64,000 nt of DNA from Halorussus halophilus (lineage in GTDB: Archaea; Halobacteriota; Halobacteria; Halobacteriales; Haladaptataceae). The translations under genes were made by a program, and so were the position numbers. The DNA lies in NCBI RefSeq assembly GCF_008831545.1, contig NZ_CP044523.1:3348001-3412000 (forward strand). Direction: 5' to 3'. The notes under the pieces were generated by a model that saw only the letters and a list, made by a program, of their open reading frames with translations, was not told the DNA's origin and did no database searches. Of the stretch, positions 14,368 through 19,669 are shown piece by piece (the stretch's first letter is position 1; each line of letters begins with the position of its first letter).

Positions 14368-15282
14368 CTATTCTATCTTCTCGTACTGCTCGGAGAGCTT
14401 GTCGGAGGCCTCGCCGAGCTGTTCGCGCTCGAACTCGGTGAGGTCCCACTCGACGACCTCTTCGACGCCGTTGGAACCGAGCTTGATCGGGACGCCGAGC
14501 GCAACGTCGTCGTGGCCGTACTCGCCGTCGAGTTTGACCGACCCGGGCAGCACTTCGCCCGTGTCGCGGACGATGGCTTCGACCATGTGGCCGACGCCCG
14601 TCGCCGGACCCCACTGAGTCGCGCCCTTCTTCTCGATGACGTTCATCGCGCTCGTCTTGAGTTCGTCCAGAATCTCGGTCTTCTCGTCGTCGCTGAACTC
14701 GGGGTCCTTGCCGTTGACTCGGACCTTCGAGAACACGGGCACCTGTGCGTCGCCGTGTTCGCCGAGAATCGTCGCTTCGACGTTCTGGACCGGCTCGTCG
14801 AATCGCTGGCTCAGGACGTAGCGGAACCGCGCGGAGTCCAGACGGCCGCCGAAGCCGACGACCTTCTCGCGCGCTCGGTCGCCCGTCTCGTAGAGGTGGC
14901 GGTTGAGCAGGTCCACCGGGTTCGACGTGGTGACGGTCACGAAGTCGTCGTTGTACTCCGCGATGGAGGAGCCGATGTCCTCCATGATGGGCGCGTTGTC
15001 GCCCGCGAGGTCGATGCGGGTCTGGCCAGGCTGGCGCGGAATGCCCGCCGTGATGACGACGACGTCCGAACCCTCGGTAGCGGAGTAGTCGCCCTGTCGG
15101 ACGACAGTGTTCGCGTCGTACGCCGCCCCGTGGTTCACGTCTGCGGCCTGTCCGATGGTGTCGTCTTCCTTGTCCGGAATGTCTACGAGTACCAACTCGT
15201 CCGCGATGTCCCGAAGCGCGATGTTGTACGCCGCCGCGGCCCCGACGGTGCCTGCCGCGCCGACCACGCTGATTTTCGTCAT
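14368..15282 (-). CDS. mdh: Malate dehydrogenase
   Basis: This 304-aa NAD-dependent enzyme interconverts malate and oxaloacetate in the TCA cycle. It is the lactate-dehydrogenase-like type known from haloarchaea. The dinucleotide site [15 protein letters not shown] (8-22), NAD-selecting acid in VLVDIP, substrate arginines in the loop region [10 protein letters not shown], and catalytic [12 protein letters not shown] (near 175-186, with the proton-relay His) are visible. Length matches the family. The divergent gene at 15453 shares its upstream region; CATTTAACG about 30 nt before the start is the likely TATA box. Confidence 0.95.
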
Positions 15283-15452
15283 ACCACGTAAATCACCGCC
15301 CGCAACACCGTTAAATGCTCCGGAACGGCCGAAAAACGGCCTCTTGAAACGGCAGACGACGTGCGAAACTTCGACAGTTGCCGAACAAACGCCGGAGAGA
15401 CGACGCGCTGGGTCGAGTAGCTTTTTTCCGCTCTGCGTGCCTTCTTGGTGGT

Positions 15453-16193
15453 ATGAGCGACGAGTTCGACAAAGAGGCCGAGCGAGAGAAACTTCGAGAG
15501 AAGTACGAGGCCGACCAGAAGGACCGCGAATCTACCCAGCGGATGAGCGAACTCCTCCTGCAAGGCGCGACGATGACGGGCAAACACTGCAACAACTGCG
15601 GCGACCCCATCTTCCGCTACGACGGCCAAGAGTTCTGTCCATCCTGCCAGAACGCCGCACAAGAAGCCGCCCAAGCCGAAACGACAGAGACGACACCGAC
15701 GGCAGAATCTGCCGAAGCGAGTGGCGGTACCGAAACCACCCGACCAGCCGAAACTGACGACGCCTCCCAAGTAACGCCAAAACAGGACCCGGAGACGAGA
15801 GCAGCGGCGGAACCTGCCACCGGGGGCGACTCTGGCGACGGCGAACCCCGCGTCGAAATCAACGACGTTCGTGTCGCTGGTCAGCACTCCCACGACACTC
15901 ACCGCCGACCGCCGTCACAGCAGGACGACCAGTCTCACGGTGGCCGAGAGTCTGGGAAGAACCGAGAATCCGTCGGAGAGCGCGGTCGCGGCCGCCGAAC
16001 TGCTCGCAGTCGTTCGCACGGAGCGACCACCGACGGCGACCTCGCCGACGCACGTGACTCGCTCGTCCGCAAACTGACCGACCTCGCCCGGCAGGCCGAG
16101 CAGACCGACGACGTCTCCCGCTCGCGCGAACTGCTCGCGGCGACCCGCGAAGCCGCAGAGGCGCTGGACGCCCTCGACCGGGCGAACCGTTAA
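15453..16193 (+). CDS. Sjogren-scleroderma autoantigen p27-type zinc protein
   Basis: This 246-aa protein has an N-terminal domain of the autoantigen p27 (SSSCA1) family. That domain includes helical [16 protein letters not shown] and a zinc ribbon CNNCGDP...FCPSCQ with two CxxC pairs (about residues 47-70). A long Thr/Glu/Asp-rich disordered linker and a helical C-terminal segment (about 190-246, rich in Arg and Ala) follow. The function in archaea is not established. The start is set at ATG 15453, which gives the family N-terminus [11 protein letters not shown]; upstream frame is not conserved-looking. It lies 26 nt before a stress-protein gene. Confidence 0.85.
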
Positions 16194-16218: not shown

Positions 16219-16611
16219 ATGCAGATTCTCGTCCCCATCGACGGTTCGGACTGTAGCTTCCGCGCGCTCGAATTCGCCACCGAGTTCGCCCGCCGGTATG
16301 AGGCGTCGCTCCACGTCGTTCACATCACCGACGCCGAAACCGACGCCACGGACGACATCGCAGACCGCGCCCGCGAACTACTCGCGGAGGCTGGTATCGA
16401 AGACCAACCGGAGGTCTCGACCGACGTAGAACTCACGTTTCGGCCCGCAAACAGGGTCGGCGAAGGGATTCTGGAACTCGTCGAGGAACGCGGCTACGAC
16501 CACGTCGTCATGGGACACCACGGTTCCGGCGCTGTCGAGCGAGCGATTCTCGGCAGTGCCGCACACACCGTCATCGAAGAAGAGGCGGTTCCAGTGACTA
16601 TTGTTCCGTAG
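16219..16611 (+). CDS. Universal stress protein (UspA family)
   Basis: This 130-aa protein has the single-domain UspA fold. The start MQILVPIDGSDCSFRAL and the nucleotide-binding motif GHHGSGAVERAILGSAAHTV (about 98-117, G-x2-G-x9-G-S/T type) suggest ATP binding. It ends in the usual PVTIVP strand. USP proteins respond to stress, but the target is unknown. Its stop overlaps by 14 nt the end of the convergent repeat protein gene. Confidence 0.92.
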   Translation: MQILVPIDGSDCSFRALEFATEFARRYEASLHVVHITDAETDATDDIADRARELLAEAGIEDQPEVSTDVELTFRPANRVGEGILELVEERGYDHVVMGHHGSGAVERAILGSAAHTVIEEEAVPVTIVP

Positions 16612-16900
16612 TTTTCGCACGGGGTTCCGTCGGCGAGACGGTCGTTCCGGGACTCACTACCCGGTCGGCGAGCGACTGGACGAAGACGAGGTCGGGGTCG
16701 AACGATTCGTCCTGCGTGACCTCGTGCTGTGGGTCTCCGTACAGGCGCTGTTCGTCGTCGTCCTCGATTCGGTTGTCGTGACAGGGGCTACCGTACAACT
16801 CCTTTTCGTCTCCTGATTCGGGCGTCTCGTGAAGCGGCGACCCGTACAGCGAGTCCGGAGTATCGGTCGTGTCTTCGCCGGAGGGTTGCTCGATTCTCAT
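16598..16900 (-). CDS. Small acidic protein with three LYG(S/D)PxH repeats
   Basis: This 100-aa protein is not recognised. It is acidic and probably disordered, with three copies of a motif spaced 17-18 residues apart: LYGSPLHE (about 18-25), LYGSPCHD (35-42) and LYGDPQHE (53-60). Each motif has Tyr-Gly, Pro and His in the same places, which suggests repeated short binding sites. The last third has FDPDLVFVQSLADRVV, a possible helix. The ATG at 16900 has an unusual upstream region with imperfect inverted repeats and AATTAAGGG elements. The gene overlaps the USP gene tail to tail. Confidence 0.6.
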   Translation of the reverse strand: MRIEQPSGEDTTDTPDSLYGSPLHETPESGDEKELYGSPCHDNRIEDDDEQRLYGDPQHEVTQDESFDPDLVFVQSLADRVVSPGTTVSPTEPRAKTTEQ

Positions 16901-16919
16901 TTACTCTCTACCTAATGGT

Positions 16920-17005
16920 CGTTACACGCACCCTTAATTGCCGACCCCCGTTTCACTGGGTTTTCGACACGGAAAGGTGCGTAAGTGTCCCCTTAATTTA
17001 AGGTA
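16920..17005. promoter_or_regulatory. Palindrome-rich upstream region of the LYG-repeat gene
   Basis: GTTACACGCACC (about 16921-16932) and GGTGCGTAAGTG (about 16976-16987) form an imperfect inverted repeat. AATTAAGGG occurs twice on the minus strand, within CCTTAATTTAAGG (near 16991-17003) and CCCTTAATT (near 16931-16939). Between them, GACCCCCGTTTCACTGGG (minus-strand core GTGAAACGGGGGTC) looks like a degenerate origin box. The layout suggests a regulated promoter. Confidence 0.45.
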
Positions 17006-17102
17006 ATGGAGATATTATGCACCCTGAAACACGGAAATCGTTGGAGCGTAACGGCGGATTTCGACCCGACTGTTCACGACCGTTCACGATTCGACCGCTC
17101 CG

Positions 17103-19565
17103 CTACGCTTGGTAATCACTACCAACCACTTCTCGAATCCGCTCGGCGGTCACTTCGCCGACGCCTTGGACTTCCAGCAAATCGTCTTTCCGGGCGGTCA
17201 TGACTGCTTCGACGCTCCTGAACTCCTCTAGCAGTGCGCGGGCGGTGACCGGGCCGATGTCCGCGATGGACCCGACGACGTACTCCTGTTGCTCGGTGAG
17301 CGTCTTGCTCTGCTTTTCGCCGTGGACCGACACTTCACGGTCGTCGGTCTCCTGTTCGCGGGTGGCGATGACCTCCAGCAAGTCGGCGGTGTCCGCTTCG
17401 TCGGTCGTTCGGAGGACGCTCGCACCGAAATCGACGGCCAGCGAGGAGAGCGCGCCTCGAATCGCGTTCGGGTGGACGTTGCGCTCGCCGTAGAGGTCTT
17501 CGCCCTCCAGAATCACGACTGGCCGCGAGTAGTGGCGGGTCGCGTCGCCCACCTGTTCGAACATCGAGCGGTCGCCGCCGGTCAGCGTGTCGAGGAAGTC
17601 GCTCACGGACTTGCGCTCGACCACGACGCGGTCGGACAGCACGTAGTCGCCGACTTCGAGGGTTTCCAGACGTGTCTCGACACCCTCGCGAGTCGAGAGG
17701 TCTCGCGCGATGTTAGAGTCGAGTTCGCGCTGGTCGGCGACGATTTCGACCGTTTCGTCGTCCGGTTCGGCGGTGGCGACGACGGCTTTGTCCGCGTCGG
17801 ACTCGGTCGGTTCGCCTGCCGCGGCAGTCTCGCTGTCGGATTCGGACGCCTCGTCTGCTGTCTCGCTCGCCGGTTCGTCGCCTTCCGTTTCTTCGACCGT
17901 CTCCACTTCGTCGCCGCCTGCGTCGAACTCCTGCAATCCGTGTTCGACTTCGCGCTCGTCGCCGCCAGCGTCACTCCCGAAGTCGCCCAACTGGCGCTGG
18001 GAGTCGTCTAGCTCTTCTTCGACCTCGGCGGCGACGCCCTTCAGTTTCTTCATCTCCTCTTCCATCTTCCCCTCGCGGCGTTTGGAAATCCAGAAGTAGG
18101 CTTCGTCGCGGGTGTCTTCGGCGAGGAGAACCGCCACGCGCCCTTTCGCCTGACGGCCTGTTCGGCCCTTCCGCTGAATCGACCGAATCGCGGTCGGTAC
18201 CGGTTCGTAGAACAGCACGAGGTCCACTTCGGGCACGTCGAGACCCTCTTCGGCGACGGACGTGGAGACTAGAACCTCGAACTCCGCGTTCCGGAACTTG
18301 TCCAAGGTCTCCTGTTGCTGTTTCTGGGTCATCCCGTCGCTTCCCTCCTTGTTGCCCTGCCCGACGAACCGGTGGGTGTCGAAGTGGTCGCCGAGGAAGT
18401 CGGTGAGGGCCTCTGCGGTGTCCCGGGACTCGGTGAAGACGATGACGCGCTGTCCTCCCTCGATGCCGAGCGTCTCGGCCAGTCGAATTCGCGTACGGGA
18501 GTATTTCGGGTGGAGACCGTCGTAGTCTTCGGCTCTGCGCATCGCCTCCTTGACTTTCGGCTCCGAGACGAACCGCTGGCTGGCTTTCGACGCCCCCGAG
18601 GAGCGCGCGGCGTTGCGTTGGCGCTCGAAGTACCGTCTGAGTGCTTCGACGCTCTGGGTCTCGACGTAGGTCACTGCCGTCCGAAGCTTCCGAATCTCTG
18701 CGAGTGCGGACATTCCCTTGAACCCCTCCGACTGGTCGTTGTCGATGAGTTTCTGGAGCTCGGCCTGTATCTTGCGGATGTCCTTCTCCGAAATGTCCGC
18801 ACTGGTCTTGTTCGTGATGCCGAGTTGTTTGAGCTTCTCCAGTCGGTCGCTGATGACCTCGTTCAGCGCGTCCCGAATCTCCATAATCTCGTCGGGGAGT
18901 TCGACGCGCTCCCACTCGACTTCCGTGTCGTGGGTGAACTCCGCCACGTCGCTGTCCTCCTCGGTCATCACTTCGACGTTTCGAATGCCGAGGTTCTCAC
19001 ACACGTCCAGAATCTCTTCCTCGTCGCCGCCGGGAGACGCGCTCATCCCGGTGACGAGCGGATTCTCCGCGTCCTGATGATAGCGCTCGGCGATGTAGTT
19101 GTACGCGTAGTCGCCGGTCGCGCGGTGGCACTCGTCGAAGGTCAGGTGCGTGACGTTCGCCAAACTGACGCGACTGCCGACGAGGTCGTTCTCCACGACT
19201 TGTGGTGTGGCGATGACGATTTTCGCTCGCTCCCACAGTTCCGCGCGGTCGTCGGGCGACACTTCGCCCGTGAACACTACGATGTCCTCGTCGGGAAGGT
19301 TGAGTGCCTCTCGGTAGAACTCGGCGTGTTGCGTGACGAGCGGCTTCGTCGGAGCGAGAAACAGCACTTTCCCGCCTATGCTCGCCAGTCTCTCGGCGGT
19401 CACGAGTAGGCTCACGGTCGTCTTCCCCAACCCCGTCGGGAGGGTGACGAGCGTGTGTTGGTCTTTGGCCGCACCGGCCAACTGCAACTGATACATCCGC
19501 CGCTCGATGAACTCCGGGACGAGAAGTTCGTGTTCGACGTAATCGGGCTCCCCGGTCGTCGCCAT
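17103..19565 (-). CDS. hef: Hef helicase-nuclease
   Basis: This 820-aa protein joins a superfamily-2 helicase to an XPF/Mus81-type nuclease and processes stalled forks. The helicase has Walker A LPTGLGKTT (42-50), DECH box (144-147) and motif VI QRKGRTGRQ (about 497). A long acidic, disordered linker (about 535-620) joins it to the nuclease, whose signature ERKSVSDFLDTLTGGD gives the metal site. Tandem helix-hairpin-helix motifs end the protein (IADIGPVTARALLEEF and VQGVGEVTAERIREV). ATG 19565 gives the family start; the longer frame upstream is not protein-like. Haloarchaeal Hef can be needed when other repair is missing. Confidence 0.95.
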   Translation of the reverse strand: MATTGEPDYVEHELLVPEFIERRMYQLQLAGAAKDQHTLVTLPTGLGKTTVSLLVTAERLASIGGKVLFLAPTKPLVTQHAEFYREALNLPDEDIVVFTGEVSPDDRAELWERAKIVIATPQVVENDLVGSRVSLANVTHLTFDECHRATGDYAYNYIAERYHQDAENPLVTGMSASPGGDEEEILDVCENLGIRNVEVMTEEDSDVAEFTHDTEVEWERVELPDEIMEIRDALNEVISDRLEKLKQLGITNKTSADISEKDIRKIQAELQKLIDNDQSEGFKGMSALAEIRKLRTAVTYVETQSVEALRRYFERQRNAARSSGASKASQRFVSEPKVKEAMRRAEDYDGLHPKYSRTRIRLAETLGIEGGQRVIVFTESRDTAEALTDFLGDHFDTHRFVGQGNKEGSDGMTQKQQQETLDKFRNAEFEVLVSTSVAEEGLDVPEVDLVLFYEPVPTAIRSIQRKGRTGRQAKGRVAVLLAEDTRDEAYFWISKRREGKMEEEMKKLKGVAAEVEEELDDSQRQLGDFGSDAGGDEREVEHGLQEFDAGGDEVETVEETEGDEPASETADEASESDSETAAAGEPTESDADKAVVATAEPDDETVEIVADQRELDSNIARDLSTREGVETRLETLEVGDYVLSDRVVVERKSVSDFLDTLTGGDRSMFEQVGDATRHYSRPVVILEGEDLYGERNVHPNAIRGALSSLAVDFGASVLRTTDEADTADLLEVIATREQETDDREVSVHGEKQSKTLTEQQEYVVGSIADIGPVTARALLEEFRSVEAVMTARKDDLLEVQGVGEVTAERIREVVGSDYQA

Positions 19566-19669
19566 TCGTGGCGAGGTTGGTCGCCAAGTGATTAAAGGGT
19601 TCGCGTTGCAGGGTGAAAGTAGAACGCGAGTCACCTACATTTTTACAAGGACACTGAGATGACGGAGCT

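Follow-up and report, generated by a model that had tools for sequence, protein, structure and literature searches.

We have found that a small open reading frame (ORF) beside hef in Halorussus halophilus belongs to an unnamed haloarchaeal protein family, which is real and new and whose function we infer. We established the gene, its family, the pattern of selection, the spacing of the conserved motifs and the position beside hef. In our judgement, the protein has about an even chance of being a small intrinsically disordered adaptor that docks a conserved protein partner via two spaced linear motifs. We rate the family as new but of a known type, that of the disordered motif proteins.

The gene and its family

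The stretch of DNA analysed, here called the window, comprises 64,000 nucleotides of a genome of 4.45 Mb in four contigs. The ORF and its neighbours are as follows.

16598..16900, minus strand: YGxPQHE-family ORF encoding a small acidic protein (ORF list, homologues, codon-level selection)
17103..19634, minus strand: hef nuclease/helicase gene, upstream and codirectional (NF010337, Hef nuclease, in NCBIfam; 1103.8 bits, cut-off 610)
16219..16611, plus strand: universal stress protein (Usp) gene (PF00582, E 6.6e-26)
15450..16193, plus strand: Auto_anti-p27 zinc-ribbon protein gene (PF06677, E 2e-16), convergent and the usual next neighbour
14368..15282, minus strand: malate dehydrogenase gene, mdh (NF041314), syntenic

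The ORF starts with ATG, encodes 100 residues with a single cysteine, and follows hef on the same strand after a gap of 202 nt. The initial annotation had placed here an ORF with three LYG(S/D)PxH boxes, overlapping the Usp gene tail to tail; we recovered exactly these coordinates and boxes, and the stop ends of the two genes overlap by 14 nt. Homologues occur in all 17 other genomes of the genus, with E values from 1.1e-18 to 5.7e-8, and in each of these genomes one adjoins hef. Therefore, the ORF is a gene, beyond chance. At E values up to 1, the window protein found a match in 41 of 59 genomes searched.

The window protein matched no family in Pfam, NCBIfam or PHROGs, and the family members tried had no match in the PDB, which agrees with the earlier statement that no described family carries this motif. 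Ten relatives likewise matched none of the three family collections, and among five further relatives, four had no family match and one a sub-threshold match (E 0.24). The YGxPQHE motif strings were absent from the open-access literature searched, so that publication elsewhere is possible, and to our knowledge they correspond to no known linear motif.

A profile built from 24 members matched 26 of the 391 genomes of the class (E up to 0.001). A DNA pattern for YGxPQH[DE] was found at 62 places in 40 of the 391 genomes, and the reversed control pattern gave 26 matches, so isolated matches can be due to chance; lone matches in three genomes (G090, G329 and G409, the last with no hef found nearby) were set aside as probably of this kind. 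When pattern and gene context are taken together, the ORF adjoins hef in at least 37 of the 391 genomes, and the carriers are spread over five numbered families (f1, f5, f7, f15 and f17). Outside the boxes, the proteins scarcely align; the boxes are retained amid unrelated flanks across several families and gene contexts. We rejected a viral origin, as the two-box pattern, which requires two full boxes with TAC first and therefore undercounts, had no match in viral contigs, a search of phages found none, and PHROGs gave none. A spread beyond Halobacteria was also rejected: two of 21 pattern matches were bacterial (Bifidobacterium, L069; Micromonosporaceae, L073) and lay in longer, repeat-like frames that look like chance.

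Two boxes under selection

The three boxes of the window protein, which begin at residues 18, 35 and 53 with LYGSPLH, LYGSPCH and LYGDPQH, are the following.

16826..16849, minus strand: box 1, LYGSPLHE, residues 18-25; lacks conservation across the family, pN/pS 0.83 (18 orthologues)
16775..16798, minus strand: box 2, LYGSPCHD, residues 35-42; pN/pS 0.16 (alignment)
16721..16744, minus strand: box 3, LYGDPQHE, the canonical box, residues 53-60; pN/pS 0.07 (YGxPQH[DE] pattern)

The pN/pS values come from a codon-by-codon comparison of 18 sequences of the genus, the window included. Over the whole ORF the value is 0.61, and selection is concentrated on boxes 2 and 3, with values elsewhere of 0.64 to 0.83 (linkers 0.72 and 0.76, C-terminal helix 0.64, box 1 as above). 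Since box 1 differs so clearly from the other two, we conclude that selection at the protein level maintains boxes 2 and 3 but not box 1. The codon comparison thus indicates strong purifying selection on boxes 2 and 3 and a box 1 that drifts as the linkers do. Of the 18 sequences, only that of the window and one other (G013, L018) have an intact box 1; the rest have lost it in part or entirely. Box 2 reads LYGEPCHE in most orthologues. Judged from these alignments, members of the family typically have two boxes rather than three. Accordingly, the three spaced motifs described earlier are present in the window but do not make the family rule, and the loss of repeats in homologues, which had been named as grounds for rejecting the idea, was found for box 1 only.

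Tyr, Gly, Pro and His are invariant in two boxes across 20 aligned members. We also tallied the boxes of 80 collected proteins after removal of C-terminus duplicates. In the best box, Tyr, Gly and Pro occur in all 80 proteins, Gln in 77, His in 79 and Glu or Asp in 78, counts that are partly circular because members were chosen by the pattern YG.[PA].H. In the second box (n = 72), found by a looser rule that requires an aromatic first residue, Gly is present in 66, Pro in 49, Gln in 36, His in 60 and Glu or Asp in 56. The claim that Tyr-Gly, Pro and His are fixed is supported: the Tyr-Gly-x-Pro-x-His core is kept by selection while the flanks drift. The distance between the two boxes is 16-19 residues in 65 of the 72 pairs, a few second-box assignments being doubtful (distances 15, 24 and 27), and the window protein, at 18, falls within this range. 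On the one hand, the linkers do drift in sequence, as the initial annotation had it; on the other hand, they are not free to change in length, which is nearly constant. Some members have a single clear box (the 38-codon ORFs of L054 and L116, and also L211 and L214), and the best box of L172 has decayed to PQYD.

These counts bear on two other readings of the boxes. In the first, the His and Glu of the paired boxes, together with the Cys of the LYGEPCHE box, would bind Zn, Cu or Ni. His is nearly universal in the best boxes, most Halorussus orthologues have a Cys-His pair in their middle box, and one paralogue encoded by this genome is just upstream of a putative P-type ATPase gene (described below). 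However, the second boxes lose His more readily than Gly, which disfavours metal as the common purpose, and the decayed box of L172 has no His. The conserved Tyr, Gly, Pro and Gln seldom serve as metal ligands. We therefore do not retain the earlier suggestion of metal binding as the shared function, since 12 of the 72 second boxes have no His; we consider this reading rather improbable. In the second, the boxes would serve as marks for a post-translational step, such as phosphorylation of the Tyr in its acidic surroundings or targeting to the proteasome. The invariant Tyr often has an acidic residue four or five positions ahead of it, which is in favour of this reading, but the Gly, Pro, Gln and His that flank the Tyr are no less fixed, and no linked kinase or protease gene was seen at the loci examined. 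We hold such a mark to be improbable.

Predicted structure and the adaptor model

AlphaFold2 models were of low confidence both for the window protein (20 sequences, mean pLDDT 65.6, pTM 0.23) and for a Haladaptatus orthologue (18 sequences, mean pLDDT 67.3, pTM 0.23), each from a shallow alignment. In both models, short helices lie over or before some of the boxes, and a further helix follows the last box.

16655..16696, minus strand: predicted helix after the boxes, residues 69-82 (AlphaFold2, pLDDT 82 for residues 71-80, the rest low-confidence)

These models suggest that the window protein is mostly disordered with local helix, a result that a shallow alignment could also give.

Conserved boxes, a fixed spacing, drifting acidic flanks and the absence of a confident fold together lead us to a disordered two-motif adaptor. 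In this model, an acidic chain would display two Y-G-x-P-Q-H-E motifs with a spacing of about 17 residues, and in members of the Halorussus and Haladaptatus types the short predicted helix would come after them. The boxes probably dock in grooves, either at two sites simultaneously or with one box for each half of a dimer, and docking of either kind would explain why the spacing is fixed while the linker sequence is free. The disorder, which we take from the low-confidence models, the docking and the bivalency are the inferred parts of the adaptor model. Linear-motif adaptors likewise carry short conserved motifs in flexible, fast-drifting chains, and selection on the motifs with drift of the linkers is what the pN/pS values of the separate regions display here. 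The selection pattern also fits the docking motifs on a flexible acidic chain that the initial annotation had pictured as a tethered chain with repeated binding sites, although its metal-binding variant is less likely. Against the adaptor, single-box members exist, so two boxes are not always needed. Candidate partners are Hef, the partners of Hef, and a zinc-ribbon protein.

A further comparison can be made with the haloarchaeal C(P)XCG zinc-finger micro-proteins such as HVO_0758 of Haloferax volcanii, which are also small with a paired short motif (PMC11241148, PMC10716476, PMC6562870). The window protein differs from these in having no CPXCG pair and one Cys, in its fixed Tyr, Gly, Pro and Gln, and in being predicted as mostly unstructured.

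Gene order and the relation to hef

In 54 of 55 tabulated carrier genomes, the window's included, a box ORF is found on the same strand as hef, at most 1.5 kb from the hef 3' end; these loci were chosen for holding a box ORF, and the same-family genomes G023 and G024 were left out. The gene convergent with it is in most cases that of the Auto_anti-p27 zinc-ribbon protein, with mdh next. Usp is found in some carriers only; since several carriers have no Usp here and retain hef, the link to UspA is weak. The exception among the 55 (G098, L109) keeps the ORF with the zinc-ribbon gene and mdh and has no adjacent hef. In at least four non-carriers (L138, L140, L165 and L176) the zinc-ribbon ORF ends a few tens of bases from the hef match, so that the box ORF is absent there and not merely diverged; other non-carriers have an unrelated gene at the corresponding place.

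This conserved neighbourhood bears on the possibility that the protein is a peptide precursor of the multi-core type, cut and modified at its repeated boxes. The short repeated cores and variable acidic spacers resemble such a precursor, but the conserved neighbours are hef, Usp, the zinc-ribbon gene and mdh, and no modifying enzyme, protease or exporter is conserved nearby. We regard this as highly improbable.

The same gene order raises the question of a dedicated Hef cofactor, a special case of the adaptor in which the protein would bind either Hef, through the Hef nuclease half or disordered linker, or a partner of Hef, and thereby tune fork repair. The ORF stands directly downstream of hef on the same strand in nearly all tabulated carriers, and this adjacency persists at L046, where a gene is inserted on the other side of the ORF. 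In Thermococcus, Hef has a disordered region that serves as a platform for docking (PMC5717133). Docking on a Hef-connected disordered region is an established mode; the Hef-associated nuclease HAN, however, is a RecJ-like nuclease (PMC5717133).

However, Hef occurs in 389 of the 391 genomes while the ORF does not, G098 keeps the ORF away from hef, and paralogues are located far from it. The whole segment is also syntenic, so the adjacency may be inertia. Because of this synteny and the near-universal presence of hef, the link drawn from gene order alone is at most suggestive, and a dedicated Hef cofactor seems to us unlikely. Set against 21 non-carriers, 41 carriers and the window differ in nine Hef columns, a comparison confounded by lineage. 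The Hef linker encoded in the window (17103-19634) contains a stretch SQRQLGDF, which we take to be PIP-like; its Ser column holds Ser in 88% of carriers and in none of the non-carriers compared, and here too lineage confounds.

Additional small ORFs accompany the box ORF in places. Some f15 genomes have two consecutive box ORFs, and some genomes have an additional mini-ORF of 38 or 54 codons. The 38-codon, one-box form lies behind the main box ORF and starts with MQ[VP][TN]YYGPPQHED (L054:6686-6802, L116:6293-6409); the 54-codon form lies between hef and the main box ORF and carries YGPPQHE and a decayed second box, LYGGSE (L107:5899-6063, L110, L112). A small ORF is also found on the 3' side of hef at a locus with no box ORF (L168, genome G163), and another adjoins a plasmid-borne box ORF (L078:836-1111); both presumably resemble the halobacterial output domain.

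Paralogues and zinc-ribbon loci

Contig C2 of the source genome carries a paralogue of 105 codons (236313-236630, minus strand; L039:6314-6631) with the boxes YGPPQHE and YGDPQHD. It lies 35 nt upstream of the putative P-type ATPase gene, and a membrane protein gene and a pyroglutamyl-peptidase-like gene come next, all recognised by eye. A related copy in G013 (L119) is likewise near a pyroglutamyl-peptidase-like gene.

At one Haladaptatus locus (L047:5872-6404, L053:5498-5904, L058:6451-6974), the box ORF overlaps the gene of a DUF7835 zinc-ribbon protein (PF25205) by 4 nt, an arrangement as in translational coupling, and at L052 and L124 the two genes stand side by side. We rejected the DUF7835 protein as a general partner, since a box ORF was seen at only one (L246) of 30 DUF7835 loci examined; the association is thus largely confined to the Haladaptatus locus and a few others. 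No paper on DUF7835 was found in the open-access literature searched.

The upstream region

16901..17102, minus strand: intergenic region after hef, putative promoter region (alignment of 17 upstream regions; repeats)

In 17 aligned upstream regions, GAAACTCGRTARAACGGCC is followed by CGACTTAAG and then by GAGTAA directly before the ATG, a layout that would suit a haloarchaeal promoter whose leader is short. In the window, the counterpart of the orthologues' GAAACTCGRTARAACGGCC element in this alignment is the segment 16945-16965. The window's version of this element, GAAAACCCAGTGAAACGGGGG, had been taken for a degenerate ORB core. The literal CCCAGTGAAACGGGGG does occur at 16945-16960 (minus-strand reading), but it is not conserved: the aligned segment in 16 orthologous upstream regions is mostly GAAACTCGRTARAACGGCC, with neither CCAGTG nor a G-run, and CCAGTGRAAAC (up to one mismatch) had no match at 16945-16960. 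We therefore dropped the ORB reading. The upstream inverted repeats reported earlier are represented by an imperfect inverted repeat with 19-nt arms that are 74% complementary. The pattern GAAACTNNNTARAACGGC (up to one mismatch) was found at 12 places in eight genomes, upstream of this ORF in seven of the eight, with five places elsewhere, and the element may be a regulatory site.

Implications

We can envisage that YGxPQHE is a haloarchaeal docking code, in which the protein encoded with hef would recruit a common partner to stalled forks via its two boxes, duplicates would carry the code to zinc-ribbon, transporter and plasmid loci, and one receptor would read them all; we think this wider scheme doubtful. 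A motif that several families of Halobacteria preserve with hardly a letter changed, while its surroundings drift, implies an equally conserved receptor, which is not named as such in the literature found. The motif would be usable as bait for this receptor, and the position of the gene beside hef may offer a cheap and testable entry to haloarchaeal fork repair.
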